Origin: Lachnospiraceae bacterium C1.1
GTDB taxonomy: Bacteria; Bacillota; Clostridia; Lachnospirales; Lachnospiraceae
Length of the DNA: 64,000 bases
Assembly: GCA_030434875.1 (NCBI GenBank)
Contig: JAUISW010000001.1
Location: forward strand, 3,424,001 to 3,488,000
Direction: 5' to 3'
Positions 31,458 to 60,924 of this stretch are shown here, in pieces. Positions within the stretch are counted from its first letter, which is position 1. Every line of letters begins with the position of its first letter. The translations under genes and the position numbers were made by a program. The notes beneath the pieces are model-generated. The model was not told where the DNA came from. It did no database searches and was given only the letters and a program-made list of their open reading frames with translations.

Positions 31458-31800
31458 AACAAATAACGGAAAAGAACTTGTCGTGCTTTGTGCGGCAAAT
31501 CATTATACAAAGAAGTATTATCTGAATCCTGCATTCAGCAAGCTTCCTCAGTCAGTAAAGGATCAGCTTGAAATAGCATGCGTGGTATTTACAGAGCAGG
31601 CAGGAGGAGAGCTTCGTATCGTATTTGACGATGAGGGCGAGATGCTCCTGCAGACCTTTGGTTCTGAGGAAGATTTTAACTATGATGAGATCGGCGCAGG
31701 ACTGATGGTAAAGGAACTTCAGAAAGAAAAAAGAGAGCTTTTCCAGGAGCTTACACTTTTTTACAGAGTTGTATTTTTAGGAGAGAAGATAGATTTATGA
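31444..31800 (+). CDS. Conserved hypothetical protein between birA and dusB
   Basis: A 118-residue soluble alpha/beta protein, overlapping birA by 14 bases and dusB by 4. It resembles a small uncharacterised Lachnospiraceae family (possibly DUF6145, from memory) found in this gene order. Features are an N-terminal basic AANHYTKKYYLNP segment, an acidic middle and an amphipathic C-terminus (KELQKEKRELFQELTLFY). No catalytic motif is visible. The overlaps indicate coupled expression with a biotin ligase and a tRNA-modification enzyme. Confidence 0.7.
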   Translation: MDTLETNNGKELVVLCAANHYTKKYYLNPAFSKLPQSVKDQLEIACVVFTEQAGGELRIVFDDEGEMLLQTFGSEEDFNYDEIGAGLMVKELQKEKRELFQELTLFYRVVFLGEKIDL

Positions 31801-32753
31801 CAGGTTCTCTCAGGATAGGAAATATAGAGCTTGATAACAGATTTATACTGGCGCCGATGGCAGGGGTAAGTGACCTGCCATTTCGTCTTATTTGCAGGGA
31901 ATATGGGGCAGGTTTAGTCTGCACTGAAATGGTAAGCGCCAAGGCTCTTCATTATAAAAATAAAAATACTTATTCACTAATGCAGAGTGTTCCGGAGGAA
32001 AGACCTCTGGCGCTGCAGATATTTGGCTCCGATCCGGAAACAATGGGCGAGCAGGCAGAAGCCATAAGCGGCGGGGATTTTGATATCCTCGATATAAATA
32101 TGGGCTGCCCGATGCCGAAAATTGTAAATAACGGCGACGGTTCCGCTCTGATGAAAGATCCGGAACTTGCGGAGAAGGTAGTTGCCGCAGTGGTAAAGGG
32201 ATCATCAAAACCGGTGACTGTAAAGATAAGGGCAGGTTTTGATGCAGAGCACAAAAATGCCGTGGAAATGGCAAAGAGAATCGAAAATGCCGGAGCTGCG
32301 GCAGTTCAGGTGCATGGCAGGACGAGAACCCAGTATTACGAGGGAAAAGCGGACTGGAATATCATCGCAGATGTAAAGGCAGCGGTGAAGATCCCCGTTA
32401 TAGGCAACGGAGACATCAATTCACTCGAGGATGCCGAGCGCATGATGACGGAAACCGGCTGTGATGCAGTATCTGTCGGAAGAGGCGCAAAGGGACGTCC
32501 CTGGATATTTAAGGAGCTTGCTGAAGGAAAGCATTATGAGCCCTCAGTTGAAGAGCGCATCGCGGTGATGAAAAGACATATCGCCCTTGAAAAAGAGCTT
32601 AAGGGTGAGTTCACAGCGGTCAGGGAAATGAGAAAGCATATCGCCTGGTACACGGTCGGAATGAAGAACTCTTCAAAACTCCGTACTTCGGTTTGTAAGG
32701 CAGAGACTGCAGATGAGCTGTACTCACTTATAGATGAGCTCATTGAAATTTAG
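31797..32753 (+). CDS. dusB: tRNA-dihydrouridine synthase
   Basis: A 318-residue flavoenzyme reducing uridine to dihydrouridine in tRNA. The TIM barrel starts APMAGVSDLPFR. The catalytic cysteine lies in DINMGCPMPKIV, and KIRAGFD, VHGRTRTQ and GNGDI motifs follow, with a C-terminal helical tRNA-binding domain. Length and motifs fit DusB. It ends the birA run; a promoter for the next operon overlaps its stop codon. Confidence 0.95.
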   Translation: MTGSLRIGNIELDNRFILAPMAGVSDLPFRLICREYGAGLVCTEMVSAKALHYKNKNTYSLMQSVPEERPLALQIFGSDPETMGEQAEAISGGDFDILDINMGCPMPKIVNNGDGSALMKDPELAEKVVAAVVKGSSKPVTVKIRAGFDAEHKNAVEMAKRIENAGAAAVQVHGRTRTQYYEGKADWNIIADVKAAVKIPVIGNGDINSLEDAERMMTETGCDAVSVGRGAKGRPWIFKELAEGKHYEPSVEERIAVMKRHIALEKELKGEFTAVREMRKHIAWYTVGMKNSSKLRTSVCKAETADELYSLIDELIEI

Positions 32754-32778
32754 ATTATGTAAAAATATTATGTATAAT
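32749..32778 (+). promoter_or_regulatory. Candidate promoter of the TerB/BrxD/helicase module
   Basis: TTTAGA (32749-32754, overlapping the dusB stop) and a perfect TATAAT (32773-32778) separated by 18 bases, 44 bases upstream of the first gene. This suggests the module is transcribed independently of dusB. Confidence 0.5.
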
Positions 32779-32821
32779 TATTATGTTAACTAAAAATATG
32801 TAATTCGGGGAATCAGAATTA

Positions 32822-34495
32822 ATGAAACGAAGAGACGATCCGAAAACTGAATATTATACAGATGTGAAATTAAGAAAGAGCCCGGACGGAAAACTTGTAT
32901 CAGAAGCGAATTCGTCAGGCTCTTTTGACTTTGTGGAAGCTAAGGCAGAGGATAAAAATCCTGCTGAAGAATACCTGACTCCGGCTGAAAAAGCCCTTCC
33001 GGAAAAAATGAGGGAGCTTAAGGCATTTATGAATTCGGATGAGCGAATGAGAATGTCGAAGACTCAGGCTTTCTATACAGAGGCTAAAATGATGGAGGAC
33101 TACGAGGACGATTTTGAAGGGGAAGGCAGGATATATTCAGCTTTCAGAACTGTATATGAAGACCTTGATATTGAAGCCCTCCGTTCCTATTTCAGCTTTA
33201 GGACAGCCTTCAGGCGCGGGGATTATATAAGGCCGGAGAAAGAGAATTATTTATATATTCTTATTGGCGAGCTTCTGATGCAGATAGGAGTAAAAAGTCC
33301 TGAAGAAGGTTTACATAAGTTATATGAAATTTCGGTAAATTACCGCTATAATCACTGGGTATATGGGCTTGAGCTCGACAGATGGATGAAGGATTACGTA
33401 GTAAATTACGGACTTCCGAATAAATATGTGCGTTACGTTTTCAAATCAGAAATAAAGACTGACTGGGCGCTCTATGTTCTGGACAATTGCGAAGATTTTT
33501 CGGATGAGGATCTTTTCAAATCAGTATCAATGCTTTCGGATTACGGAATGGCTGATACGCCTTTTGCAAAGAAATATCCGGAGGATGCCCTGCATGGAAC
33601 TGCGACGGCTTTGCGGGCTATGGATGCAGAGAGCAGACGATTTTATAAGAAAAGCCTCGCGGGATATCTGCATTATTTTATGAGGACAGAAAATTATCGG
33701 CTCTTCGAAGGAGCGGTATTTTATAATAATGAAAGACCTGACAGCGGCAGCTTCAAGGTGGACTCTGCCAGGATATTTAAGAAGAATTTCCGGAGCTGGA
33801 AATGTGAAAGCTATGGCATTGATATAGGCCGTTTCATATGGGTAAAGGAATTAAATACGCTGATCCGCGAGATCGACCGGCAGTTAAGAAAGGCATTTAA
33901 GTTTGGAAAAGCCCTGAAGAAAAGACCGGTAAGCTTTGAAACGGAAGAGGCCATAGCTGATGGAATTCAAAAATATATAAAAGAAAAAGAGGAAGCAAAG
34001 AAACCAGTAATAAAAGTCGATCTTTCCAAGCTTTCAAATATCAGGAGCGATGCCGAATATACAAGGGATTCGCTTTTGGAGGGCACAGAGGAGGATTATG
34101 ACGCTGAGGAAAATCCTGCAGACAGCGGGGCGGAAGAGAAAGAAGCGATTTATGATTTTCATGAGATAAATTCTGACTCCGAAAATATGACAGATGATAT
34201 AAATGTTGAAGAATCAGCGGAAAATATAGAAATATCAGCGGATATTTTTGAAGGATCATCAGAAATCCCGGCAGGGCTCAGTGCAGATGAGGCAGCCCTT
34301 ATAAAATGTCTCCTTAATGGGGAGTCAGCGAAAGATTTTGCCAGGGAAAGACATCAGATATTGTCTGTTCTGGTGGACTCGATCAACGAAAAATTATATG
34401 ATATATTTGCAGATACAGTAATAGATATGGCAGATGATATCCCGGAAATTATCGAAGATTACAGGGATGATCTGGAGGAAATGTTCAGCTCCTGA
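32822..34495 (+). CDS. TerB-N / TerB-C domain protein
   Basis: A 557-residue acidic, soluble protein. About residues 55-180 match the TerB N-terminal domain: MRELKAFMN, then ALRSYFSFRTAFRRGDY and LIGELLMQIGVKSPEEGL. A helical middle (about 180-400) follows, then a low-complexity acidic linker (about 415-480). The C-terminal 80 residues match TerB-C (LSADEAALIKCLLNG, SINEKLYDI, EDYRDDLEEMF). TerB-N/TerB-C proteins are described next to P-loop ATPases and helicases in proposed stress or DNA-processing systems. It is 22 bases upstream of the BrxD-like ATPase gene. No enzyme motif is seen, so it is more likely an adaptor or sensor. Confidence 0.82.
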   Translation: MKRRDDPKTEYYTDVKLRKSPDGKLVSEANSSGSFDFVEAKAEDKNPAEEYLTPAEKALPEKMRELKAFMNSDERMRMSKTQAFYTEAKMMEDYEDDFEGEGRIYSAFRTVYEDLDIEALRSYFSFRTAFRRGDYIRPEKENYLYILIGELLMQIGVKSPEEGLHKLYEISVNYRYNHWVYGLELDRWMKDYVVNYGLPNKYVRYVFKSEIKTDWALYVLDNCEDFSDEDLFKSVSMLSDYGMADTPFAKKYPEDALHGTATALRAMDAESRRFYKKSLAGYLHYFMRTENYRLFEGAVFYNNERPDSGSFKVDSARIFKKNFRSWKCESYGIDIGRFIWVKELNTLIREIDRQLRKAFKFGKALKKRPVSFETEEAIADGIQKYIKEKEEAKKPVIKVDLSKLSNIRSDAEYTRDSLLEGTEEDYDAEENPADSGAEEKEAIYDFHEINSDSENMTDDINVEESAENIEISADIFEGSSEIPAGLSADEAALIKCLLNGESAKDFARERHQILSVLVDSINEKLYDIFADTVIDMADDIPEIIEDYRDDLEEMFSS

Positions 34496-34517
34496 AGCGG
34501 GATAAAATGAGGAAGAT

Positions 34518-35873
34518 ATGGCGGATATAAAGACAAATGCGGCAAAGAGGAAAGTGCCGAAAAGAATAGCGCAGGCAGTGATAAATTCTCTTAAAGGCGG
34601 AGTAGTACCGAGGATCGGCCTGCCATATATTGCAGTCGGAAGAAAAAGAGAGATAGAAGCTCTTTTGCACGACGTGGATATAATAGGCGAGGGCGGAGCT
34701 TCGTTCAGATTTATAGTCGGCAAATACGGAAGCGGAAAAAGCTTTCTTTTGCAGACTATAAGAAATTATGTAATGGACAGGAATTTCATAGTGGCAGATG
34801 CAGATCTTTCACCGGAAAGAAGACTGCAGGGCTCGAAGGGCCAGGGACTTGCGACCTACAGAGAGCTTATACAGAACCTTTCGACCAAAACAAGACCCGA
34901 GGGCGGAGCTCTTACATTGCTGCTCGACAGATGGATAAGCTCTGTGCAGAATGAAGTTTTAACGGAGGGTAATTTCAAAGCAGAGGATCCGGGATTTGGC
35001 GACGAAGTGGAAAAACGGATCCATGAAGTCGTAAATAACGTGAGCGAACTAGTGCACGGATTTGATTTTGCGAGACTTTTGTCCCTTTATTATAATGCGA
35101 GCGTTAATGGAGATGACGAGACCAAGGGTAAAGTAGTTAAATGGTTCAGAGGCGAGTATCCCACAAAAAGTGAGGCAAAGAGCGAACTCGGTGTAAACGT
35201 CATTATTTCGGATGATGACTGGTATGAGTACTTAAAGCTTTTCGCCTTCTTTTTCAGACAGGCGGGATATGAAGGAATGCTCGTGTTTTTCGATGAGCTT
35301 GTAAATATCTATAAAATTCCGAACAGCATTACCAGACAATATAATTATGAAAAAATCCTCACGATGTATAATGATACATTGCAGGGGAAGGCGAAACATT
35401 TAGGAATTATCATGTGCGGAACGCCCCAGTGCGTCGAGGATACGAGGCGAGGGATATACAGCTACGAGGCGCTTCGTTCGCGACTGGCGGAGGGCAAGTT
35501 TTCGAGAGAAGGTGCACGCGATATGCTGGCTCCGGTGATCAGGCTTGAGCCATTGACGCCCGAGGAAATGACTGTTTTATCGGAGAAGCTTGCGGATCTG
35601 CATGCGGAACTCTACGGATATGAAAGACATATCAGCGAGGCTGATATAGTTGATTTTATAAAGATTGAATTTGCCCGGATCGGTGCTGATACAAATATCA
35701 CGCCGAGAGAAGTAATAAGGGATTTTATAGAGATCATGGATATAGTTTATCAGAATGAGTCGGTTGACATAAAATCCTTGCTGAATTCCGATGAATTTGC
35801 CTATGCAAAATCCGAAGCGGTAAGCGATGACACCGGCGAAGAGGGAAACGAATACGCTGAGTTTACTTTGTGA
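34518..35873 (+). CDS. BrxD-like (DUF2791) P-loop ATPase
   Basis: A 451-residue ATPase. Walker A GKYGSGKS lies at about 69-76, followed by the family-typical DADLSPERRLQGSKGQGLAT segment. Walker B MLVFFDEL lies at about 253-260, and an AAA-like C-terminus follows. The layout GRKREIEALL...GGASFRFIVGKYGSGKSFLLQ is the signature of BrxD in type 2 BREX and related proteins. It is usually found beside a BrxHI-like helicase, as here. In BREX its role is unresolved. Here no pglX, pglZ, brxC or methyltransferase accompanies it. It lies 22 bases after the TerB gene and 39 bases before the helicase. Confidence 0.85.
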   Translation: MADIKTNAAKRKVPKRIAQAVINSLKGGVVPRIGLPYIAVGRKREIEALLHDVDIIGEGGASFRFIVGKYGSGKSFLLQTIRNYVMDRNFIVADADLSPERRLQGSKGQGLATYRELIQNLSTKTRPEGGALTLLLDRWISSVQNEVLTEGNFKAEDPGFGDEVEKRIHEVVNNVSELVHGFDFARLLSLYYNASVNGDDETKGKVVKWFRGEYPTKSEAKSELGVNVIISDDDWYEYLKLFAFFFRQAGYEGMLVFFDELVNIYKIPNSITRQYNYEKILTMYNDTLQGKAKHLGIIMCGTPQCVEDTRRGIYSYEALRSRLAEGKFSREGARDMLAPVIRLEPLTPEEMTVLSEKLADLHAELYGYERHISEADIVDFIKIEFARIGADTNITPREVIRDFIEIMDIVYQNESVDIKSLLNSDEFAYAKSEAVSDDTGEEGNEYAEFTL

Positions 35874-35912
35874 TTTTGGAGAGAAGACACAGGATCTTTA
35901 TTAGCGGAGGAA

Positions 35913-38135
35913 ATGATGGATATTTATTCCAGATATGCACCATTTATACAGGATTATATATATCGTAATAACTGGGAAAGTCTCCGTGCTGTACAGGTAG
36001 CGGCGGGTGAAGCGGTCTTCGGCACAGAGGACAATGTCCTTCTCTGTGCATCGACGGCATCGGGAAAAACAGAAGCAGCCTTTTTCCCTATACTGACTCT
36101 TTTTATGGAAGAGCCGCCGCTCTCAGTGGGATGCATTTATATTGCACCGCTTAAATCGCTGATAAATGACCAGTTCGGACGACTGAACGATCTCTGCGAA
36201 GAAGCCGGAATACCGGTCTGGCACTGGCATGGAGATGTTTCGAGCTCGCATAAAAATAAAATGCTTAAACACCCCTCCGGGATATTGCAGATAACTCCGG
36301 AATCTCTGGAGGCGATGCTCATACATAAGCATTCTTTTATACCGAAATTATTCGGGGATTTAAGGTTTATCGTAATAGATGAGATACATTCTTTTATAAG
36401 ATCGGATAGGGGTGGACAGACTTTATGTCTGATAGAGAGGCTTTCTAAAATTGCCGGAGTGAAGCCAAGAAGAATCGGACTTTCGGCAACTATCGGTGAT
36501 CCGAAGGATGTGGGAGAATTTCTGGCAGCCGGCAGCGGCAGGGGAACGGTGATACCGAAGATCAAAGAAGGAAATATCAAATGGCGTCTTTCGATGGAGC
36601 AGTTCTTTAAGACAGAGCCGCAGTCCGGAGGACAGCATCCAAAGACTGCACTTAAGGCGGCAGACCCCGGAATGGCCTATGTATTTGAGCATACCAGGGG
36701 AAAGAAATGTCTGGTATTTTCAAATTCCAGAGAGGAATGCGAGGCAGTAACCTCTACACTTCGTCAATACGCAGAGTCGATAAATGAAAAAGACAGATTT
36801 TTGATACATCATGGAAATCTCTCAACCTCGTTTAGGGAAACGGCCGAGGATCTGATGAAGCGTGAGGAGGAAAATCTCACGACCTGTACTACGGCTACAC
36901 TGGAGCTGGGAATAGATATCGGAAGGCTTGAGAGGGCATTTCAGATAGATGCACCTTTTACAGTATCGTCCTTTCTGCAGAGAATGGGCCGCACCGGAAG
37001 GCGTGAACTTCCGCCGGAAATGTGGTTCGTTATGATAGAGGAGCATGCGGAATCGAGGGCGATGCTGCCGGAGACGATTCCCTGGAAACTCTTGCAGGGC
37101 GCGGCTCTGGTGCAGATTTATTTAGAAGAGCGCTGGGTGGAGCCTATGAGAAAAGGCCGTCTTCCCTACAGTCTTCTCTACCATCAGACCATGAGCACTC
37201 TGGCTTCCTGCGGCGAGATGACACCTGCAGAACTCGCATCAAGAGTGCTCAGCCTAAACTATTTCAAACTCATAAGCCAGGATGATTACAGGGTTTTACT
37301 GAGGCATTTAATAGAGATTGACCATATCGAGCAGACGGAGAACGGCGGTCTCATTGTAGGAATTGCCGGCGAGCGCGTTACCAACAATTTCAAATTCTAT
37401 GCGGTCTTTCAGGAGAATGAGGAATACTCTGTCCGTTCGGAATCAGAAGAGCTCGGAACTATTGTAAAGCCGCCGCCGGTTGGAGATAAGATAGCCATTG
37501 CCGGCCATGTATGGGTAGTGGAATCAGTTGACATAAAACGACATCAGGTTTATTGTCATATGGTAAAAGGTCAGATTCCGGCCTATTTCGGAGAAGTGCC
37601 GGGGGACATCAATACCCGTATAATGGAGCGGATGCTGCAGGTTCTGAGGGAGGATAAAGTTTACCCCTACCTTATGCCGAATGCGGTGGCAAGGCTCGCA
37701 GAAGCAAGGGCAAATGCAAGGCTTTCGGGTATCGTAAACAAGCCCATGATATGCCTCGGAGGAAATATGTACTGCCTTATTCCCTGGCTCGGAACCTACG
37801 CCTTTCTGGCGCTGGAAAGATTTATAAGGCTTCGCTGCGGCAAAAGGCTTAAAATAAAGGGATTTGACTCGGTCAGACCTTATTATATGCAGTTTACAAT
37901 GGGAGTCAGTGAAGAGGAATTTTTTGAAATTTTGCATGATGAAATATCGAAGCCGCTTGATCCAATGGAACTTTTATTTCCGAAAGAAGTTCCGATATTT
38001 GAGCGCTACGACGAAATGCTTCCGGAATCACTCGTAAGAAAGGGATTTGCCTGCGGCGTCTTAGACGTTGAGGGGATGAAGACCCGTGTAATGCAGTGGG
38101 CCCCGAATAAGGAAACTTTTATAGTAAAATTATGA
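35913..38135 (+). CDS. Lhr/BrxHI-like superfamily II DEAD/DEAH helicase
   Basis: A 740-residue helicase. Motif I ASTASGKTEAAF lies at about 45-56, motif Ia IAPLKSL, motif II IDEIHSF at about 153-159, motif III LSATIGD at about 190, motif V TATLELGIDIG, and motif VI QRMGRTGRR at about 355. The C-terminal 300 residues correspond to the Lhr-type extension. BrxHI helicases in type 2 BREX are Lhr-like. GGAGG (35905-35909) serves the ATG at 35913 or the adjacent ATG. Third gene of the TerB module; a GC-rich hairpin lies about 75 bases downstream. Confidence 0.9.
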   Translation: MMDIYSRYAPFIQDYIYRNNWESLRAVQVAAGEAVFGTEDNVLLCASTASGKTEAAFFPILTLFMEEPPLSVGCIYIAPLKSLINDQFGRLNDLCEEAGIPVWHWHGDVSSSHKNKMLKHPSGILQITPESLEAMLIHKHSFIPKLFGDLRFIVIDEIHSFIRSDRGGQTLCLIERLSKIAGVKPRRIGLSATIGDPKDVGEFLAAGSGRGTVIPKIKEGNIKWRLSMEQFFKTEPQSGGQHPKTALKAADPGMAYVFEHTRGKKCLVFSNSREECEAVTSTLRQYAESINEKDRFLIHHGNLSTSFRETAEDLMKREEENLTTCTTATLELGIDIGRLERAFQIDAPFTVSSFLQRMGRTGRRELPPEMWFVMIEEHAESRAMLPETIPWKLLQGAALVQIYLEERWVEPMRKGRLPYSLLYHQTMSTLASCGEMTPAELASRVLSLNYFKLISQDDYRVLLRHLIEIDHIEQTENGGLIVGIAGERVTNNFKFYAVFQENEEYSVRSESEELGTIVKPPPVGDKIAIAGHVWVVESVDIKRHQVYCHMVKGQIPAYFGEVPGDINTRIMERMLQVLREDKVYPYLMPNAVARLAEARANARLSGIVNKPMICLGGNMYCLIPWLGTYAFLALERFIRLRCGKRLKIKGFDSVRPYYMQFTMGVSEEEFFEILHDEISKPLDPMELLFPKEVPIFERYDEMLPESLVRKGFACGVLDVEGMKTRVMQWAPNKETFIVKL

Positions 38136-38211
38136 TACTGAAACTTCAATACGACCAACTAATGAGGAAGAGGACAAATGACAGAAAGTTCAGCAGCATA
38201 GGAAATGAGCC

Positions 38212-38229
38212 GGGGCGTTTATACGCCCC
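38212..38229. terminator. GC-rich hairpin between converging genes
   Basis: GGGGCGT/ACGCCCC with a TTAT loop, overlapping the stop codon of the RpiR gene. It has no T-run on either strand, so it may be a weak terminator or an mRNA end-protecting hairpin. Confidence 0.4.
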
Positions 38230-39085
38230 ATTCCCCACGGATTGCTTCCTGGTATTTATTGGTTTCGATCAATTCACGAACATTTTTTTCGTAATTAGCA
38301 TCAAAAACGAAGCATGCGATCGTGTCGAGAACGAGCTTCATTGCCACGCTTGAGCTTAAAGGACCGATTTTGGGATCGCATTCTTTTACATCGACACGAA
38401 TGACCTCGTCAGCCATTCTTGAAAGAGTATTATCTTTTGGCCCGGTAAGAAGAATGATCTCTGTCTGATGGCGTTTGAGCTGTTTTGCAGCCTCTACTAT
38501 CTCAAAACTTTCTCCGCCAAATGAAATTATAAAAGCAAGTTCATCCATATCGGTATTGGAAGCCATGGATACCGGAAAACCTACAAGCATAAATGATGCG
38601 GCTTTTATCTGGCTTCTCATGAGCATGATCTGGAACTCTGCGCCTAAAAGGGCTGATTCCTGTTTGCCGAATATGAGCACGGATTTGTGTTTTAAGATAT
38701 TATCGGCAACTCTTGAAAGCTGGGCGATATCGATCTTTGCCATTACATCATCGACGGTCTGGTGAAATAGTCTCGATAATTTACCGGATATATCTTCTTT
38801 AGAATCACCATGATGAAAAGGAAAGTTTTCAGTTACACGTTCGCGTTCGTTGATGCTGGAGGCGCCTATTTCGGCAGCCAGATGAATGCAGAGATCGCGG
38901 TGTCCCTGAAAACCAAGCTTATTTGCAAAACGATTAAGTGATGATTTGCTCACATAAAGATTATCAGTCAGAACCTTGACTGCTTCCGATACAAATGACT
39001 GAGGGTGCTCCAGAATATAATCTGCTATGTGAATTTCGGTGTCTGTGAGTCCTTTCTTACTCACAAGTTTTTCTCTAATAGACAT
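38219..39085 (-). CDS. MurR/RpiR family transcriptional regulator
   Basis: A 288-residue regulator. An N-terminal RpiR-type HTH (about 1-80: LTDTEIHIADYILEHP, LYVSKSSLNRFANKLGF) and a C-terminal SIS sugar-phosphate-binding domain (about 125-260: IFGKQESALLGAEFQ, IISFGGESFEI). SIS domains sense phosphosugars, and this gene lies beside a beta-glucoside-type PTS locus, so it most likely controls that locus in response to a phosphorylated disaccharide or hexose phosphate. It is followed in the same orientation by the AEC remnant and EIIB. Confidence 0.9.
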   Translation of the reverse strand: MSIREKLVSKKGLTDTEIHIADYILEHPQSFVSEAVKVLTDNLYVSKSSLNRFANKLGFQGHRDLCIHLAAEIGASSINERERVTENFPFHHGDSKEDISGKLSRLFHQTVDDVMAKIDIAQLSRVADNILKHKSVLIFGKQESALLGAEFQIMLMRSQIKAASFMLVGFPVSMASNTDMDELAFIISFGGESFEIVEAAKQLKRHQTEIILLTGPKDNTLSRMADEVIRVDVKECDPKIGPLSSSVAMKLVLDTIACFVFDANYEKNVRELIETNKYQEAIRGEWGV

Positions 39086-48670: not shown

Positions 48671-51600
48671 ATGAAGAAAAGTGCTAAGATAAAGCGCTCT
48701 CTTGCATCGATCTTATCGGCGGCAATGCTCTTTTCGTCGGTATTTGGCAATGCAGGTCTGACGCCGGTAAGCGCAGATGACAGTGTAACAACATTTGAAG
48801 AATGGGAATTATCAAAAGATGATGAGGGTGTAAACGTAGCCAGATGGTCAGGTTCGGATTTTTATTTCTATTCTGCATCTGATTTTGATTACAACACTAC
48901 CAGCGATACATTCGATGGGGAATCAAAGACATTTAACTATGTCAGAACTACGGGTACAAACGGAAAACAGGCCTCCGGAATAGTACAGACAAGCGGCGCA
49001 TACTGCGATTATGAAGCAAAATCATCCGGAGTTTTGAGCGTTTATATCAAAATCGCTTCCGGTAAGGCATTTTATGTAAGTAAGACAGATGAAGATGATG
49101 AAAGCAGTGAAGTTGGACATTTCACAATAGGTACAGAAAGCACCTATGATGATTACGAAGATATCGCAGTAACACCAAGTGATACCAACAAAACCATCAA
49201 GATCGATATCGACTGCGAGTCAGGAAATACCTACTATATGGCAGTTATCGGTTCCAAGGCATGGATCTACGGAATCGAAGAAGATATGGCAAATACAACC
49301 CTTAGCGGCGAGATCACAGGAAAAGTTGAGGATCTTCCTGAGGATTACAGCATTAATTTCATCGATGAGGATGAGGTAAGGCACGAGGCTACACGTTCAG
49401 ACAACAGTTACTCAATAGTTTTAAGACCCGGTGATTATACAGCATCACTTAAGGGTGCAAAGGGATTTGCTATCGCAAAAGACAGCAAAAAGGTAACTGT
49501 TGGAACAGATTCTGAGCAGAGTCATGATCTTGAGATAGTTGAAAGCGAAAGCTTTACAATGAGCGGTGCGATCAAGGGCGTGAGCGAGGACTATGATCTT
49601 TCAGACCTTAAGCTTACATTTACACCCGGCGATACAGCATCTAACGATCCGGTAAATGTAGAGATCGATACCGAAAACAGAAGCTATTCCGCAGAACTTG
49701 TAAGCGGTGAGAAATACAGCCTCAGTATGAGCGGAGCAGAGGATTATAAACTTTCTGAAGAAGTTACTGCAGAGCTCAGCGCAGATACTGAAAAGGATAT
49801 TGAACTTGCATTGAAGGACGTATATACAGTAAGCGGCGGATTCATCGGACTTACAGATGTTCGCGGTGAATATGAGAATTTAAGCGTAGCTCCCACATCC
49901 ATCAGTTTCAAAAATGTAGATGATGAATATGAGTACAGCGGAGATATCACAGACAACGGTTATAAAGTAAGCTTAAGACCGGGCTCATATCTGGCATCCA
50001 TCGAGTCAGATGACTATTCTACATCAACACACGTAGTTGTAGAGGACTCAGACCTTTCAAGGGACCTTCTTCTCAAGGCAGAAAAGACAGAAGCAGTTGA
50101 ATATTCTGCAGAGATCGAAGTCGGCGAAGACAAAGAGTACAAGAGCCTTCGTGCAGCAGTAGAAGCAGTAAAGAACATGACAAGAGAGAGCGACGAGAGA
50201 GTAACTATCGTCCTTGATCCCGGAACATACAGAGAGCAGGTATATATCGATACACCGAATGTTACACTCAAGAGTGCAAGCGGTGACAGAGATGATACAA
50301 CTATCAGCTGGTATTATGGTATCGGTTATAAATATTATAGTGTAGTAAACAGCCTCTACGATCCTTATGCTGATTATGATCAGTTTGAAAAAGGCAATGT
50401 AACAAGTTACTGGGGCTCAGCAGTTATCACAACAGCAAATGCAGAGGGCTTCAGGGCAGAAAACATCACATTTGAGAACTCTTTCAACAAGTATATGACT
50501 GAGGAAGAGCTTTCAGACGGAGTAGAAGTAGACGGACTTGAGTCCATCACAGTTGTACGTCGTGCTGCAACAGACGTAAAGACAAAGACAGCAACAGAGA
50601 GAGCTGCAGCATATGTAAACTATGCAGATCAGACAGAGTTCAATAACTGTGCATTCATCGGAAGCCAGGATACACTTTATACCTGCAACAGACAGTTGGA
50701 TGCATATTACAGAAACTGCTATATCGAAGGACAGACAGACTTTATCTATGGTAACGGCGATGTAATATTTGACGGCTGCGAGATCAATTTCTGCGGATAT
50801 ACAGATAAGGCAGCTGCAGGATACCTTACAGCAAACTCATGCTCAAAGAGCTATTATGCAGATAACGGCTATATTTTCAGAAGCTGCTACATCTCATATG
50901 CAGATGACAGCGATATGCTCACAACACCCGGATATTTCGGACGTACATGGGGCGACAGCGCAAAAGTAAGATTCATCAACACAAGACTTCAGGATAAGGA
51001 CATGATCCTTGCAGACGGCTGGTCATCAATGAGCAAGGTTAATCCCACTGATGAAACAGTTTCACTCCTTGAGTACAACACAACATTTGCAGGCGAGGCA
51101 GTATCAACATCAGGTCGTGTAACAGGCGTTCTTGACAGTATCGATGCAGATGACTATTCAGTAGAAAACGTATTTACAAAGAATGGCTGGACACCTTCCT
51201 ACTATACAGGAGATGCTTACAGCACACCTAAGTTCAGCGTAGAGCCTACACTTACATCAAACGGTGACCTTAACGCTCCCAACCCGGGTGAAAAAGTCAC
51301 AGTAATGTATGAACTCGGTAATGACTGGGCAGATGAAGATGCTTCGATTATCTCATGGTATGCAGTAGATACAGATTATGATAATTCTTCTCTTGAGAAT
51401 ACACTTAAGAGTGCAGAACTTATCTCAACTTCAGTAGCTTCAGTAACAAACAGCGTTCAGATCCCTATGTCAGCAGCAGGCAAATACCTCATGGTAGTCG
51501 TAACTGCAGCAGTAAATGACGGTTCTGTAGGCGCAACTGAGTATATCGTAAACGAAGGACTTGCAGCTATCAGCTCAACCTGGAGCGATCCTTCAAATCC

Positions 51601-53569
51601 GGATTCAATAAGCCCCGGATCAGGTATCAATATCTACCTTGCAGGAGATTCTACAGTTAAAGATTACTCTCCTAAGGGTATTTACAACAATGGTTCAAAT
51701 GATCCCAGAGCTTCATGGGGCGAATACCTTCAGGATTTCTTAAACGATGATTATGTAACAGTTAACAACTATGCACAGGGCGGACGTTCATCACGTTCAT
51801 TCATCAATGAAGGCAAACTTGATGCGATCCTTGAGAACATCGGCGAAGGCGATTACCTCTTCGTACAGTTCGGTCACAATGATGAAGGTAACCAGCAGAG
51901 CTACTATATCGACAGATTTGCTCCTCTTTGGGTAAAGGGTACAGGCACTATTTACTCCAACTTCCCTACAATTAAGCCGGAAGAGAGCATGATGACAGCA
52001 ACACCTTCAAGCCTTACATCAGCTATCAGCAACAGCAAATATTATGCATGGGACTGCGGAGCTACATTCAAGGGCTACCTCCAGTACTATGTAGATGAAG
52101 CACTTGCAAAGGGTGCAACACCGGTTATTGTTACACCTGTATCCAGAATGTACTATGGTACAGACGGAAAGATCTACGACCATCATGATGCAACAGGAAC
52201 AGATTATGCTGATACAGCAGAGTACGGCATTGCCAAGGAATACAGATGCGATACTTATGTAACAGCATGCAAGGAAGTTTACGAAGCAAATAAAGATAAG
52301 GGCGTTTTACTTGTAGACGCTTATGCAGCAACAAGAGAGATGTTTGATGATGCTTACGCAGCATGCGGAAGTGATGCTAACGGACAGGCTATCATGAACG
52401 CATCGGATAAGACTCACTCAAACAAGGTCGGCGGATTTATCCAGGCAGCAGTATTTGCAGAGTGGATCCAGGATGCAGGACTTGATATCTCAAAATATGT
52501 AGAGAAGCCCGCAAGCGTTTACGGTGATGATAATACAGATCAGTATATCTTCGAATTAAACGCAGACAGCGAGTTCAAGGCTTATGATAATAAGCACAAC
52601 TATCAGGAGTACTGGACAGAAGTTGGCCAGAAGCTTATCAATGAAGTAGCTGAAAAGCACGATCAGATCAATGCTTCTGAGGACACAGAAGACAAAGATA
52701 CAAGATCTGAAGATAGTGAAAAGACTGATGAAGATAAGACTTCAACTGATGAGGATAAGAAGACAGATGAAGACAAAACTGCAGCCGACGAAGATAAGAC
52801 AGCAACAGATGAAGACAAGACTTCAGCTGACGAAGACAAGACCGATGCAGATGAAGACAAGACAGTATCAAACGATGACGCCGCTGACGAAGACAAGACA
52901 GTATCAGATGATGAAGCAGTCGCAGATGATGATGCAGACTCAGATCTAGACGATAGTGTTTCTGATGATAATGCAGCAGTATCTGTAAATGAAGCAGAGG
53001 CTGCAAAAGCAGCAAATAAGCCTTATGGCGAAGTTACAAAGACTCTTGAAGTAAATGGTATGTCAGTAAGCGTTAACTATTTCGAGAATATCCCTTACAT
53101 GGGAGTTTCAGTTAAGAATGCTGAAGATATAGGACTTTCACTAACAGTTGACGGCAAGGAGATCCCTGCATCAGCCTTAAGGATCAAAGTAAAGGGTAAG
53201 AAAGGCGCAGGAAATCCGTTTACATTACAGCTCAAAGGCTTCAAGGGAGCTTACAACACAGCTGATTACAAGAAGGTTAAAGCTTCACTTAAGAAGCTGG
53301 AGATCGGCGGAACACAGTACGCAATGACTGTAAAGAAAGCGATCGCAAGCAAGCTCTCAGCTTCAGAGTCAGGACAGGTTATGGTAAAGCTTAATAAGAG
53401 CGGAAGCGGCGTACAGAACGCAAAGCTTGTTATCATTTATCATGACGCAAAGGGTGCATCAAAGAGAAAGCTTGTAAAGATCAATAAAGCCGATATCGCA
53501 GGCTATGATGCAGCCACAAAGACCGTAACATTCAGCGGCAACCTCAACGGTTCAGCCACCATAAAATGA
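48671..53569 (+). CDS. Secreted CE8 pectin methylesterase - CE12 acetylesterase fusion (paralog 1)
   Basis: A 1632-residue exported enzyme. The signal peptide is about 1-36. A domain of unknown type (about 37-210) precedes three Ig-like or carboxypeptidase-regulatory-like repeats (about 212-475). The CE8 pectin methylesterase follows (about 485-830): GTYREQV, GSQDTLYT, DFIYGNGDVIFDG with the catalytic Asp, and FGRTWG. The CE12 SGNH acetylesterase is at about 985-1290: GDSTV, GGRSSRSF, GHND and DKTHSN. An acidic linker of DEDK repeats (about 1337-1435) leads to a conserved C-terminal domain (about 1440-1632). It would remove methyl and acetyl groups from pectin outside the cell. Confidence 0.9.
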   Translation: MKKSAKIKRSLASILSAAMLFSSVFGNAGLTPVSADDSVTTFEEWELSKDDEGVNVARWSGSDFYFYSASDFDYNTTSDTFDGESKTFNYVRTTGTNGKQASGIVQTSGAYCDYEAKSSGVLSVYIKIASGKAFYVSKTDEDDESSEVGHFTIGTESTYDDYEDIAVTPSDTNKTIKIDIDCESGNTYYMAVIGSKAWIYGIEEDMANTTLSGEITGKVEDLPEDYSINFIDEDEVRHEATRSDNSYSIVLRPGDYTASLKGAKGFAIAKDSKKVTVGTDSEQSHDLEIVESESFTMSGAIKGVSEDYDLSDLKLTFTPGDTASNDPVNVEIDTENRSYSAELVSGEKYSLSMSGAEDYKLSEEVTAELSADTEKDIELALKDVYTVSGGFIGLTDVRGEYENLSVAPTSISFKNVDDEYEYSGDITDNGYKVSLRPGSYLASIESDDYSTSTHVVVEDSDLSRDLLLKAEKTEAVEYSAEIEVGEDKEYKSLRAAVEAVKNMTRESDERVTIVLDPGTYREQVYIDTPNVTLKSASGDRDDTTISWYYGIGYKYYSVVNSLYDPYADYDQFEKGNVTSYWGSAVITTANAEGFRAENITFENSFNKYMTEEELSDGVEVDGLESITVVRRAATDVKTKTATERAAAYVNYADQTEFNNCAFIGSQDTLYTCNRQLDAYYRNCYIEGQTDFIYGNGDVIFDGCEINFCGYTDKAAAGYLTANSCSKSYYADNGYIFRSCYISYADDSDMLTTPGYFGRTWGDSAKVRFINTRLQDKDMILADGWSSMSKVNPTDETVSLLEYNTTFAGEAVSTSGRVTGVLDSIDADDYSVENVFTKNGWTPSYYTGDAYSTPKFSVEPTLTSNGDLNAPNPGEKVTVMYELGNDWADEDASIISWYAVDTDYDNSSLENTLKSAELISTSVASVTNSVQIPMSAAGKYLMVVVTAAVNDGSVGATEYIVNEGLAAISSTWSDPSNPDSISPGSGINIYLAGDSTVKDYSPKGIYNNGSNDPRASWGEYLQDFLNDDYVTVNNYAQGGRSSRSFINEGKLDAILENIGEGDYLFVQFGHNDEGNQQSYYIDRFAPLWVKGTGTIYSNFPTIKPEESMMTATPSSLTSAISNSKYYAWDCGATFKGYLQYYVDEALAKGATPVIVTPVSRMYYGTDGKIYDHHDATGTDYADTAEYGIAKEYRCDTYVTACKEVYEANKDKGVLLVDAYAATREMFDDAYAACGSDANGQAIMNASDKTHSNKVGGFIQAAVFAEWIQDAGLDISKYVEKPASVYGDDNTDQYIFELNADSEFKAYDNKHNYQEYWTEVGQKLINEVAEKHDQINASEDTEDKDTRSEDSEKTDEDKTSTDEDKKTDEDKTAADEDKTATDEDKTSADEDKTDADEDKTVSNDDAADEDKTVSDDEAVADDDADSDLDDSVSDDNAAVSVNEAEAAKAANKPYGEVTKTLEVNGMSVSVNYFENIPYMGVSVKNAEDIGLSLTVDGKEIPASALRIKVKGKKGAGNPFTLQLKGFKGAYNTADYKKVKASLKKLEIGGTQYAMTVKKAIASKLSASESGQVMVKLNKSGSGVQNAKLVIIYHDAKGASKRKLVKINKADIAGYDAATKTVTFSGNLNGSATIK
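52680..52960 (+). repeat. DEDK-repeat linker in paralog 1
   Basis: About seven copies of a six- or seven-residue acidic unit ending DEDK, encoded by degenerate 21-base repeats. Shadow reading frames on the other strand here are compositional artefacts. It differs completely from the SENK linker at the same place in paralog 2. Confidence 0.8.
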
Positions 53570-55170: not shown

Positions 55171-55617
55171 AAATTCAGCCTCTTTGCGTGTTTTTTCATT
55201 GCCGTAATTATAGTTGAAATGCGGGAAAAAGGCAAACGTGTGAGGTCTTTACTCGTATTTAAATATATTGATTTTTGGATAATATTTTATTGGAATAGTA
55301 AGGCCTTCATCAGCCTCGTTTTTGAAAAAGAGCAATGGAATGAGCTCATTTCACCTCCAAATTTTAATTTTTTTTTTAGTAAATTTTTATAATTTCTCCT
55401 AAATCCTGCCTGAATATATTGTATCTTTCTGTGTACAATATACAGAAATTGTATACGATTAGATACAATGGTCCTATTTAAAATATCCAAAACATAGAAA
55501 AATCGTTGTATTTTCACGATTTATACACATTTACAAGTTATCCATGACATAGTATCATGATTAATGTTTTAAAAGAGGAACAATTTCGTCCGCGATTTGT
55601 GGATCAGGAGGTTAGGA
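55171..55617. promoter_or_regulatory. 447-base intergenic region with nested dyads and second MerR-type promoter
   Basis: Nested inverted repeats TTGTATCT (55419-55426) / AGATACAA (55461-55468) enclose TTTCTGT / ACAGAAA (55426-55432, 55442-55448). At 55538-55568 lies TTATCC, a 19-base spacer, and AATGTT; the spacer is covered by CCATGACATAGTATCATGA (55542-55560), the counterpart of the paralog 1 palindrome. The region 55171-55400 is AT-rich with nothing else recognisable. Confidence 0.65.
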
Positions 55618-58600
55618 ATGAAGACAAGTGCTAGGTTAAAGCGCTCACTTGCATCGATTTTATCGGCAGCAATGCTCTTAACATCAGTATTTGGAAATGC
55701 AAGTCTGACGCCGGTCAGCGCAGATGACAGTGTAACAACACATGGAAACTGGGAAATATCAAAGGACAGTAATGGAATAAATATTGCCAACTGGTCTGAT
55801 TCGGACTTTTATTATCATTCAAAAAGTGATTTTAAAACCGGAACTACAGGTGCTTACTTTAACAAAGAGAGAAAAGAATTTAACTATGTAGCATCGACAG
55901 GCTCAAATGGAAAAGAGTCTAAGGGGATAGTACAGACAAACAATACAGACTATGGATATTGCGATTATAAAGCAGATGCATCCGGAGTTTTGAGTGTCTA
56001 TATCAAGGCTGCTGTTGGTAAAAAATTTTACTTAAGCAAGAAAGATAAAACTGGCGATTCATCTGTTGTTGCAAATTTCGAAATGGTTTCAGAAAATGCA
56101 GCAGAAAAATATAGCGAAGTAGAAGGTGTTGAAATAACACCAAGTGATGATGAAGAAGCTCAAACCCTTAAGATCGATATTGACTGCGAAGCCGGAAGCA
56201 CTTACTACATGTGCGTATCCGGTTCTAAAGTTTATGTCTACGGCATCGAAGAGGACATGGCAAGTATAAATCTTAGCGGTGAGATCACAGGAGAAGTTGA
56301 TAAGCTTCCTAAAGATTACAGCATCAGCTTTATCGATGAAGAGGATAACGAGTACGAGGCAACACGTTCAGACAACAGCTACTCGGTAACCTTAAGACCC
56401 GGTGATTATACAGCGACAGTCAAGGGTGCAAGCGGATATACCGTTTCAAAAGAAAGCAAAGATATAACAGTAGGTTCAGATTCTGAGCAGAGTCACGACA
56501 TTGAGATCGTTGAAAATGATTGCGTTACAATGAGCGGTAATGTTAAGGGAGTAGATGAAGATTATGATCTTTCAGATCTCGAGTTTACATTTATACCTGA
56601 AGACAGCACATCAAACGATCCTGTAAAGGCAAAGGTCAATGCTGAAAAGAGAACTTACTCTGCAGAACTTGTAAGCGGTGAAAAATACAGCCTTAGCATG
56701 AACGGAGCAAAGGATTACGAACTTGCAGAAGAAGTAACAGCTGAGATAAGTGAAAATACTGAAAAAGATATTGAGCTTAGATCAATAGATAAATATACAG
56801 TAAGCGGCGGCTTTATCGGACTTACAGATATCCGCGGTGAATATGAGAAATTAAGCATATCAGCCGCATCGATCAGTTTCAAAAATGTAGCTGACGAATA
56901 TGAATACAGCGGAGAAATTACAGATAATGGCTATAAGGTAAGTTTAAGACCCGGATCATATCAGGCATCGATCGAGTCAGATGACTATTCTACAACAACA
57001 CACGTAGTTGTAGAGGATTCAAGCGTTTCAAGAGACCTTCTTCTCAAGGCAGAAAAGACAGAAACTCTTGAGTATGCTTCAGAGATCAAAGTCGGCGAGG
57101 ACAAAGAATATAAGAGCATCCGTGCGGCAGTAGAAGCTGTAACAAAGATGAGCAGAAGCAACGATCAGCGAGTAACGATCGTTGTTGATCCCGGAACATA
57201 CAGAGAGCAGGTTTACATTGATACACCGAATGTTACACTTAAGAGTGCAAGCGGTGACAGAAATGATACAAAGATCACATGGTACTATGGGATCGGTTAT
57301 AAATACTATAGTGCAGTAGACAGCCATTATGATCCATATGCAGACTACGATCAGTATGCAAAGGGCGATGTTGTTGATGATTGGGGTTCTGCTGTAATCA
57401 CAACAAGTGAGGCGAAAGGTTTCAAAGCAGAAAATATTACATTTGAGAACTCTTTCAACAAGTATATGACGGATGAAGAGATCGCGGATGGAGTAGAAGT
57501 AAACGGGCTTCAGTCTATTAAGGTTGTACGTCGTGCAGGAACAGAAGTAAGGTCAAAGTCAGCTACAGAGAGAGCTGCAGCATATGTAAACTATGCAGAT
57601 CAGACAGAGTTCAATAACTGTGCATTCATCGGAAGTCAGGATACACTTTATACATCTAACAGAACTTTTGATTCATATTATAAAAACTGCTATATCGAAG
57701 GACAGACAGACTTTATCTATGGTAACGGCGATGTAATATTTGACGGCTGCGAACTCAACTTCTGTGGTTATTCTGATAAGGGATATGCAGGATACCTTAC
57801 AGCAAATTCAAGTCAGACCAAATATTTGGCAAATGACGGCTATATCTTCAGAAGTTGCTATATCTCATATGCAGATGACAGCGATATGCTCACAACACCC
57901 GGATATTTCGGACGTACATGGGGCAACAGTGCAAAAGTAAGATTCATAAATACCAGACTTCAGAAAGAGGATATGATCCTTCCGGCCGGCTGGTCATCAA
58001 TGAGCAAGGTTAACCCGACTGATGAAACAGTATCACTCCTTGAGTACAACACAAGATTTGCAGGAGAGGCAGTATCAACGTCAGGGCGTGTAACAGGCGT
58101 TCTTGACAGCATTGATGCAGATGATTATTCAGTAGAAAACGTATTTACAAAGAACGGCTGGACACCTTCTTATTACACAGGAGATGCTTACAGCACACCG
58201 GAATTCAGCAAGAAACCTTCACTTACATCAAATGGTGACCTTAATGCACTTAACCCCGGTGAAACAGTTACAGTAATGTATGAACTTGGTGATGACTGGG
58301 CAGATGAGGATGCTTCAATCATCTCATGGTATGCAGTAGATACAGATTATGATAATTCTTCTCTTGAGAAGACACTTGAAAGTGCAGAACTTATATCGAC
58401 TTCTGCAGCTTCATCATCAAAGAGCGTTCAGATCCCTATGTCAGCAGCAGGCAAATACCTCATGGTAGTTGTGACTGCAGCAGTAAATGATGGATCTGTA
58501 GGTAATGCAGAGTATATCGTAAACGAAGGACTTGCAGCTATCAGTTCAACCTGGAATGATCCTTCAAATCCGGGATCAATAAGCCCCGGATCAGGTATCA

Positions 58601-60786
58601 ATATATATCTTGCAGGAGATTCTACGGTTAAGGATTACTCCGCAGAAGGTATGTACAACAGTAAAAATGATCCCAGAGCTTCATGGGGAGAATTCCTTCA
58701 GGATTTCTTCAATAAAGATTATGTAACAGTTAACAACTATGCACAGGGTGGACGTTCATCACGTTCATTCATCAACGAAGGAAAACTCGATGCGATCCTT
58801 GAGAACATCAGAGAAGGAGACTATCTCTTCGTTCAGTTTGGCCACAATGATGAAGGCAACGAGCAGAAATACTACATTGACAGATTTGCTCCTCTTTGGA
58901 CAAAGGGTTCAGGTAAAGTACTTTCAAACTTCCCTACTATCAAGCCTGAAGAGAGCATGATGACAGAAACACCTTCTGAGCTTTCATCATCTATCAGTAA
59001 CAGCAAATATTATGCATGGGACTGCGGAGCTACATTTAAAGGCTACCTTCAGTATTATATTGATGCGGCGATTGAAAAGGGAGCAACACCTGTGCTCGTA
59101 ACACCTGTATCCAGAATGTATTATGGTACAGATGGAAAGATCTATGATCACCACGATGCAACCGGAACAGATTATTTTGATACAGCAGAGTACGGACTTT
59201 CTAAACAAGAAAGATGCGACAGCTATGTAACAGCGGTTAAGGAAGTTTACGAAGAAAATAAGGATAAGGGCGTTTTACTTGTAGATGCTTATGCAGCAAC
59301 AAGGAAAATGTTCGATGATGCTTATGCAGCATGCGGAAGTGATGAAAACGGCAAGGCCATCATGAATGTCACGAATGAATCCACTGATAAGACACATTCA
59401 AATAAGGTCGGCGGCTTCATCCAGGCAGCAGTATTTGCAGAGTGGATCCAGGATGCAGGACTTGATATTTCAAAATATGTAAAGAAGCCTGCAAGCGTTT
59501 ATGGTGATGACAATACAGAGCAGTATATCTTTGAATTAGATGCTGACAGCAAGTTCAAGGCATATGACAACGACCACAACTACCAGGAGTACTGGACAGA
59601 AATAGGCCAGAAACTTCTTGATGAAGTTGCTGAAAAGCACGATAAGATAAACGCAGCAGTATCGGATAATAAGGCAGCTTCAGAGAATAAGGTACCATCG
59701 GAGAATAAAGCGCCTTCAGAGAATAAAGCGCCTTCAGAGAATAAGGCAGCTCCAGAGAATAAGGTACCATCGGAGAATAAAGCGCCTTCAGAGAATAAAG
59801 CGCCTTCAGAGAATAAGGCAGCTTCAGAGAATAAAGCAGCTTCAGAGAATAAAGCGCCTTCAGAGAATAAGGCAGCTTCAGAAAATAAAGCAACTTCTGA
59901 GAACGAAGCACCTGAAAAGACAGATGATAAGGAATCAACAGAAGAGAAGGATTCGACTGTAGAGGATGATAAGACTCTGACAGATGATGACAAGAAATCT
60001 GATGAAGAAAAAGATTCAGAATCAGATAAGGATGCTTCTGCGGACGAAGAAAAGAAGTCTGATAATAATAAGACAACATCAGATAATAATGTATCTGCAG
60101 ATGAAAATAAAGACTCAGAGTCAGATAATGAAGCAGCCGCAGATGAGGATACAAGCTCAGATGCAGATAAGAGCGTTTCAGATGATAATGCAGCAGTTTC
60201 TGAAAATGAAGCTGAAGCTGCAAAGGCAGCAAATAAGCCTTATGGCGAAGTAAGTAAGACAGCAGAAGTTGACGGAATTTCAGTAAGCGTCAACTATTGC
60301 GAGAATATCCCTTATATGGGAGCTGCAGTTAAGTATGCAGAAGATCTCGGACTTTCAGTAAATATTGATGGACAGGAAATTCCTGCATCGGCTCTTAAGA
60401 TCAAAGTAAAGGGCAAGAAGGGTGCCGGTAATCCGTTTACAGTACAGATCAAAGGCCTCAAGGGAGCTTATAATACCGCAAAATACAAGAAGGTAAAAGC
60501 TTCACTTAAGAAGATGGAGATCTCCGGAACACAGTATGCAATGACTGTAAAGAATGCAATTACAAGCAAGAGCTCTGCTTCAGAGTCCGGACAGGTTATG
60601 GTAAAAGTTAAAAAAGACGGCAGCAGCGTACAGAACGTTAAGCTTGTTGTTATTTACCACAACGCAAAGGGCGCAGCAAAGACAAAGCTCGTTAAAGTTA
60701 AGAAGTCTGATATCAGTAACTATGATTCAGCTGCAAAGACAATTACATTCAGTGGAAACCTGAGCGGTTCAGTTACAGTTCAGTAA
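55618..60786 (+). CDS. Secreted CE8 pectin methylesterase - CE12 acetylesterase fusion (paralog 2)
   Basis: A 1722-residue paralog of the enzyme at 48671 with the same order: signal peptide, unknown N-terminal domain, three beta repeats, CE8 domain (GSQDTLYT near 674, DFIYGNGDVIFDG, FGRTWG), CE12 domain (GDSTV near 1000, GGRSSRSF, GHND, DKTHSN), disordered linker, conserved C-terminal domain. The ATG at 55618, 8 bases after GGAGG, is preferred over a frame 7 codons longer. Both catalytic domains are intact. The linker (about 1346-1528) is longer than in paralog 1 and built from SENK units. The C-terminal domain has no SLH or LPXTG motif and may bind the cell wall by an unrecognised mechanism. 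Confidence 0.9.
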   Translation: MKTSARLKRSLASILSAAMLLTSVFGNASLTPVSADDSVTTHGNWEISKDSNGINIANWSDSDFYYHSKSDFKTGTTGAYFNKERKEFNYVASTGSNGKESKGIVQTNNTDYGYCDYKADASGVLSVYIKAAVGKKFYLSKKDKTGDSSVVANFEMVSENAAEKYSEVEGVEITPSDDEEAQTLKIDIDCEAGSTYYMCVSGSKVYVYGIEEDMASINLSGEITGEVDKLPKDYSISFIDEEDNEYEATRSDNSYSVTLRPGDYTATVKGASGYTVSKESKDITVGSDSEQSHDIEIVENDCVTMSGNVKGVDEDYDLSDLEFTFIPEDSTSNDPVKAKVNAEKRTYSAELVSGEKYSLSMNGAKDYELAEEVTAEISENTEKDIELRSIDKYTVSGGFIGLTDIRGEYEKLSISAASISFKNVADEYEYSGEITDNGYKVSLRPGSYQASIESDDYSTTTHVVVEDSSVSRDLLLKAEKTETLEYASEIKVGEDKEYKSIRAAVEAVTKMSRSNDQRVTIVVDPGTYREQVYIDTPNVTLKSASGDRNDTKITWYYGIGYKYYSAVDSHYDPYADYDQYAKGDVVDDWGSAVITTSEAKGFKAENITFENSFNKYMTDEEIADGVEVNGLQSIKVVRRAGTEVRSKSATERAAAYVNYADQTEFNNCAFIGSQDTLYTSNRTFDSYYKNCYIEGQTDFIYGNGDVIFDGCELNFCGYSDKGYAGYLTANSSQTKYLANDGYIFRSCYISYADDSDMLTTPGYFGRTWGNSAKVRFINTRLQKEDMILPAGWSSMSKVNPTDETVSLLEYNTRFAGEAVSTSGRVTGVLDSIDADDYSVENVFTKNGWTPSYYTGDAYSTPEFSKKPSLTSNGDLNALNPGETVTVMYELGDDWADEDASIISWYAVDTDYDNSSLEKTLESAELISTSAASSSKSVQIPMSAAGKYLMVVVTAAVNDGSVGNAEYIVNEGLAAISSTWNDPSNPGSISPGSGINIYLAGDSTVKDYSAEGMYNSKNDPRASWGEFLQDFFNKDYVTVNNYAQGGRSSRSFINEGKLDAILENIREGDYLFVQFGHNDEGNEQKYYIDRFAPLWTKGSGKVLSNFPTIKPEESMMTETPSELSSSISNSKYYAWDCGATFKGYLQYYIDAAIEKGATPVLVTPVSRMYYGTDGKIYDHHDATGTDYFDTAEYGLSKQERCDSYVTAVKEVYEENKDKGVLLVDAYAATRKMFDDAYAACGSDENGKAIMNVTNESTDKTHSNKVGGFIQAAVFAEWIQDAGLDISKYVKKPASVYGDDNTEQYIFELDADSKFKAYDNDHNYQEYWTEIGQKLLDEVAEKHDKINAAVSDNKAASENKVPSENKAPSENKAPSENKAAPENKVPSENKAPSENKAPSENKAASENKAASENKAPSENKAASENKATSENEAPEKTDDKESTEEKDSTVEDDKTLTDDDKKSDEEKDSESDKDASADEEKKSDNNKTTSDNNVSADENKDSESDNEAAADEDTSSDADKSVSDDNAAVSENEAEAAKAANKPYGEVSKTAEVDGISVSVNYCENIPYMGAAVKYAEDLGLSVNIDGQEIPASALKIKVKGKKGAGNPFTVQIKGLKGAYNTAKYKKVKASLKKMEISGTQYAMTVKNAITSKSSASESGQVMVKVKKDGSSVQNVKLVVIYHNAKGAAKTKLVKVKKSDISNYDSAAKTITFSGNLSGSVTVQ
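59656..59909 (+). repeat. 18-bp tandem repeats encoding SENK units
   Basis: About 14 in-frame units of 18 bases, encoding APSENK, AASENK and VPSENK variants. Several adjacent units are identical at the DNA level, indicating recent slippage or unequal crossover. The array is continuous, with no spacers, so it is not a CRISPR. Confidence 0.9.
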
Positions 60787-60840: not shown

Positions 60841-60843
60841 TGA

Positions 60844-60924
60844 GAAATGAGCTATGGGGACGTTGTTTAGGGATCATTTTGCTTTACAAAATGATCCCTA
60901 AACAACGTCCCCATAGCTCATTTC
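60844..60924. repeat. Palindromic repeat, copy 2 (38-bp perfect arms)
   Basis: Arms 60844-60881 and 60887-60924 are perfectly complementary with a 5-base loop. The arm begins GAAATGAGCTATGGGGACG and ends GGGATCATTTTG, the same order as copy 1, with compensatory differences on both arms (CTTC versus TTTA region). Confidence 0.9.

Follow-up and report, generated by a model that had tools for sequence, protein, structure and literature searches.

What are the three genes that follow dusB on the forward strand of a 64,000-nucleotide stretch of the genome of Lachnospiraceae bacterium C1.1 (GCA_030434875.1, contig JAUISW010000001.1, positions 3,424,001 to 3,488,000; the window, below)? A sequence-only reading had seen there a new arrangement, in which a TerB protein stands in for the modification and phosphatase genes of bacteriophage exclusion (BREX) systems. 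Comparison with the PADLOC profiles removes this claim of a novel BREX-like module: the trio is almost certainly, to judge from its proteins, an intact anti-phage operon sngA-sngB-sngC of an already described system, Shango, of which it makes one further clean locus. Shango was reported from Pseudomonas aeruginosa PA14 as a set of three genes, whose products are a TerB-like protein, an ATPase and a helicase of the DEAD/DEAH-box kind (PMC10250203). Taken together with the function, mechanism and mode of gain proposed below, this identity is very probably the best explanation of the locus.

The three open reading frames (ORFs), all on the + strand, are full length and open: sngA (32822..34495, 557 amino acids, aa), sngB (34518..35873, 451 aa) and sngC (35913..38135, 740 aa). 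The gaps are of 22 bases between sngA and sngB and of 39 bases between sngB and sngC, and the ORF calls agree here with the co-directional layout first noted. The Shango profiles of PADLOC score 192 bits on SngA, 641.5 on SngB and 908.8 on SngC, while the best BREX profiles, BrxD on SngB (180.7 bits) and BrxHI on SngC (405.6 bits), stay under half of the Shango scores. The match to SngA is near full length (residues 60-554 against profile positions 68-526 of 528, E 7.5e-57). Both halves of the TerB-N/TerB-C description of the first gene are borne out by Pfam: TerB_N (PF13208, residues 57-246, 32990..33559, +) at 48 bits for a cut-off of 25, and TerB_C (PF15615, residues 383-552, 33968..34477, +) at 84.5 bits for a cut-off of 26.3. 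SngB, an AAA+/P-loop ATPase, matches BrxC_BrxD (PF10923, 581 bits); SngC, a superfamily 2 (SF2) helicase of the DEAD/DEAH type, matches DEAD (97.9 bits) and Helicase_C (60.6 bits). A scan with motif patterns found the ATPase and helicase motifs intact. SngB has the Walker A GKYGSGKS (residues 68-75, 34719..34742, +) and a Walker-B-like LVFFDE (residues 255-260, 35280..35297, +); SngC has motif I ASTASGKT (residues 46-53, 36048..36071, +), motif II DEIH (residues 156-159, 36378..36389, +) and motif VI QRMGRTGR (residues 356-363, 36978..37001, +), as well as SAT and TATLELGID. A TerB-like SngA, an ATPase apart from BrxD, a helicase apart from BrxHI and the A-B-C order are the traits by which Shango is recognized in sequence, and all are present. 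The same three genes in the same order, with near full-length profile matches, reproduce the layout of PA14; the assignment is one by profile. The copy here is chromosomal, beside metabolic and core genes.

Why, then, did the trio look like BREX? A survey of helicases groups SngC with BrxHI, DruE and DpdJ in a clade that is potentially distinct (PMC12278908), and the BREX impression can be traced to this distant kinship of SngC and BrxHI. The BrxC_BrxD domain is likewise common to SngB and the BrxD of type 2 BREX. A P-loop ATPase with a BrxD signature, as the second gene had been described, is therefore right as to the Walker motifs and PF10923 but not as to BrxD itself: the NCBIfam cut-off for BrxD is missed (NF033438, 182.2 bits against 350), and the SngB profile fits far better. 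Similarly, the third product is the SF2 helicase that had been announced, but the winged-helix profile of Lhr (PF19306) gives 13 bits on it and does not reach its cut-off of 27, so that 'Lhr-type' is valid for the helicase core only, and membership of SngC in Lhr is ruled out. Membership of the trio in BREX is ruled out by the profile scores together with gene content: the neighbours scanned at the locus include no BREX gene, neither pglX nor pglZ, neither brxC/pglY nor pglW.

A subtler kinship with BREX might still be imagined, with SngB and SngC as a detached BrxD/BrxHI pair that acts in trans with a distant locus. The BrxC_BrxD domain of SngB would suit this idea, and the same genome does hold a BREX locus some 1.1 Mb from the trio (G000:C1:2356001-2376000; L183:3246-19988), made of brxB, brxC, pglX, pglZ and brxL, the gene set of type I, with the Shedu gene sduA embedded between pglZ and brxL. 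The sole PglZ match of the genome falls there. In the stretch examined, which ends at brxB, a 1204-aa ORF without PADLOC match at 1e-20 lies beyond brxL. That locus, however, has its own BrxC and BrxL; with the Shango profiles so far ahead, the BrxD cut-off missed and sngA the regular companion of sngB in other genomes (see below), action in trans is scarcely credible.

How constant is the trio elsewhere? The SngB alignment (A1) was used to fetch 80 named loci, the best 80 of at least 517 confirmed; they come mostly from Bacillota, with some from Bacteroidales, Bacteroidetes, Spirochaetales and Flexilinea. In these best 80, sngA accompanies sngB in 78, sngC in 76, and both in 74. The gap is at most 300 bases between sngA and sngB in 71/74, between sngB and sngC in 71/74, and at both places in 69/74, which are the loci free of inserts. 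Conservation of the three genes as a compact set, for which profile searches had been proposed as a check, is thus what is found. As for the six loci without both partners, sngB is near a contig end on the missing side in three (L100, L148, L151), other genes occupy the expected position of sngC in two (L144, L153), and L179 has no sngA despite 5.9 kb of upstream sequence. L144 is from the congener G047, with a block of genes after sngB. L153 is from the congener G001 (also L082:12344-18394), where sngB is directly followed by a block whose genes, identified by Pfam in L082 only, include NIF3-like, AraC-type, esterase and MFS transporter ones; sngC is found past the block in G001, on the opposite strand, and in G004. 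Blocks with ORF lengths similar to those of L082 are seen in L084 and L085, from two other congeners, and sngC lies beyond the block in L082 and L084.

From L101-L179 one flanking ORF per side was also taken, the closest with 120-800 residues (n=130, by a crude ORF picker that may return spurious frames). At 1e-10, 49 PADLOC families had matches among these neighbours, none with more than two members; the 25 of the 49 that were listed include no BREX family, the other 24 having at most two members each. Because of this the operon appears to lie mostly outside BREX loci, and is not always part of complete ones. A stand-alone anti-phage module that is no part of BREX, as the sequence-only reading had it, is very likely what the trio is, with sngA and sngC beside sngB in so many loci.

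But is it chiefly anti-phage? TerB domains have long been tied to stress systems, and a housekeeping or stress module for DNA processing (tellurite, oxidative stress, DNA damage) would be at home among the metabolic and core genes scanned around the trio and with neighbours of which no more than two match any one PADLOC family. Unlike a housekeeping gene, the operon is patchy: the SngA profile finds a match in 9/48 genomes at the level of the genus and in 25/250 at that of the family, both counts including the own genome. (A search of proteins with SngA, in which 7999 candidates were scored, returned five, the query among them, and is too narrow for counts.) Further, SngB-like matches, with Shango and BrxD unsorted, stand on 692 plasmid records (542 of them predicted to be conjugative), and the trio is in both of the two that were examined; phage records gave no SngB match. 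Most directly, the published account credits PA14 Shango with strong protection in liquid culture and a modest plaque reduction, of 10-100 fold and not for every phage, and cites an effect of about 10-fold on two phages for an E. coli Shango reported by another group (PMC10250203). A module with its main role in stress is thus unlikely. Other anti-phage systems, Bunzi and Dionysus, also include a TerB-type protein. Their partner genes differ from those of Shango.

How did the operon come to stand next to dusB? Ahead of dusB (31797..32753, +, by Pfam and synteny) a gene for DUF6145 is found in 46/48 genomes of the genus. Among 30 loci examined of those 46, the own genome included, dusB is followed by greA in 24; sngA comes after it in the own genome and in G040, some 6 kb of other genes in G024, and there is no greA in the stretch seen after dusB in G039, G020 and G043. 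The own genome has greA-lysS 46.2 kb farther along, so that the trio splits the usual order dusB-greA-lysS. Since greA is the rule at this place and sngA is there only in the own genome and G040, the operon probably came in between dusB and greA, where it would form the left boundary of a wider accessory segment, and this gain probably took place within a small clade. The statement that the site does not look like a defence island is right for the close neighbours (dusB, a regulator of the rpiR type, transport and glycosidase genes), metabolic or core as scanned, but takes no account of the 46-kb segment which parts dusB from greA-lysS and at whose edge the operon sits. The part of the segment inside the window that was scanned (14 ORFs, 3 without Pfam match) has phosphotransferase system (PTS), GH1, thiolase, MerR-type, pectinesterase-domain and SfsA genes and no integrase; no mark of an integration site turned up when the window was scanned for tRNA genes and with Rfam (at the gathering threshold). 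Very large proteins with pectinesterase domains are encoded at 48671-53569 and 55597-60786 (1632 and 1729 aa). Identities make horizontal gain a mixed case. SngB of the congeners L083 and L086-L088 is 69-74% identical to that of the window, against 75.7% for Lactobacillus L101; for SngC the figures are 67-73% against 66.1%. Repeated loss may be envisaged instead.

Loss raises a further question, whether the operon might no longer be working and be on its way out of this lineage. It is rearranged just downstream: a TetR-type gene, whole in G023 (L076), is cut to its first 7 codons at 38178-38198, where a stop and other sequence follow immediately. G023, a draft of the same species, has no SngA profile score, but the end of sngC is present at a contig edge. 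Decay is nevertheless very unlikely, with three full-length frames, the motifs of SngB and SngC kept, and a piece of 318 bases around the end of sngC that is 99% identical in G023. The two strains diverge right after sngC. An 83-base palindromic element of the window (60843-60924; L077:320-402) matches the G023 contig in both orientations; it lies there between inverted copies of the rpiR end, which may be an artefact of assembly.

Transcription of the operon is less easily read. The start of sngA lies 68 bases past the end of dusB, and the promoter that had been placed over the dusB stop finds its match to consensus in two candidates (32743..32778, +), TTGAAA-17-TATTAT at 32743-32771 or TTTAGA-18-TATAAT at 32749-32778, each with 10/12 positions. 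These sites are weak: the interval 32500-38400 has 15 of that quality, where shuffled sequence gives 10.7 (sd 3.0), and the hexamers are not conserved in the relative G040, which has the operon at the same place. No terminator-like site is listed in the interval between dusB and sngA, so that read-through from dusB, or co-transcription with it, is possible.

What would the three proteins do? A first indication comes from their unequal rates of change. Ninety sources (the 80 loci, nine longer stretches and the window) gave 57 full-length trios, one genome being present twice (L083 has the values of L160). Over 300 random pairs mean identity is 36.5% for SngA, 76.0% for SngB and 72.4% for SngC (medians 32.3, 74.1 and 68.9), and SngA is the lowest of the three in 300/300 pairs; as the loci were picked by SngB, the fair contrast is that between SngA and SngC. 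Even in the close relative G040, SngA is 62% identical to that of the window and SngB 91%. An alignment of SngA (A2, n=62: 57 of the 64 full proteins of L100-L179, the window and the 4 others of the SngA search) retains TerB_N in 62/62 and TerB_C in 61/62, its best-conserved parts being residues ~81-160, 401-420 and 521-540. In 38/62 there are at least 120 residues ahead of about residue 60 of the window protein, an extension that the latter lacks, and a YjbR domain is matched in 9/62. In the SngB of 38 of the 80 loci and the window (A3, n=39), G71, G73, K74 and S75 of Walker A and D259 and E260 of the Walker-B-like motif are invariant.

Predicted structures add some leads. The last 74 residues of the SngA model (~484-557, 34271..34492, +) form a winged helix, and its conserved residues, which include acids (D519, D527, D531, D546), suggest to us contact with protein more than binding of DNA. 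A fold search with SngA returned nothing at E <=0.001 (best 0.61), a second look covering mainly the C-terminal winged helix. By sequence, solved structures gave no match to SngA at E <=1 and none to SngB at E <=0.01, the A1 profile finding 2 rows (E 0.11 and 0.29). The SngB model has a mean pLDDT (predicted local distance difference test) of 64.5; Foldseek ranks a mitoribosomal protein (E 1.3e-4) and HslU first for it, RdrA and ORC appearing at lower ranks, and we take the putative resemblance to ORC/Cdc6 as a lead.

The mechanism of Shango is given as unknown in published accounts, and none was found in the portions of the literature searched. From the sequences we may tentatively sketch one. 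SngA would be a variable sensor or adaptor that sees a phage-linked structure or protein and recruits SngB through its conserved C-terminal region; SngB, as an ORC/Cdc6-like AAA+ ATPase, would load or license SngC on phage DNA; and SngC would translocate, and strip, unwind or block the replicating phage DNA. Hachiman (HamAB) offers a model, with an SF2 helicase as sensor and motor on DNA and with HamB near the Ski2 helicases (PMC12278908). HamA is a nuclease, whereas no nuclease domain was matched by Pfam or PADLOC in SngA, SngB or SngC; any destruction of DNA would therefore need a nuclease of the host or of the neighbourhood.

Could such a nuclease come from genes lodged in the operon itself? 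The sngB-sngC interval is occupied by a pair of DNA methylases and an EcoRI-type endonuclease in L125 (L125:3783-6810), by an MmeI-type enzyme in L127 and by a RhuM/Fic protein in L169; in the sngA-sngB interval there are a PD-(D/E)XK protein (L137), DUF3990 (L127), a Sel1-repeat protein (L142) and a KilA-N protein (L151). So varied a set implies that not all inserts are defence genes. No mention of inserts in Shango operons was found in the passages on the system that were consulted, which does not prove that the literature has none. A bolder and rather doubtful reading would make SngA a fast-diversifying recognition subunit on a nearly frozen SngB-SngC engine, and would let further genes dock at the A-B and B-C junctions, including defence genes (restriction-modification of the EcoRI and MmeI types, PD-(D/E)XK, RhuM/Fic) which would lend the helicase the nuclease that it lacks.

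It is in this contrast of rates and in these insertions, rather than in the trio itself, that the value of the finding beyond the locus lies. The restriction enzymes of a few operons suggest partners for Shango, and SngA, far more variable than SngB and SngC, would be the one to exchange or mutate if one wishes to find out what Shango senses.
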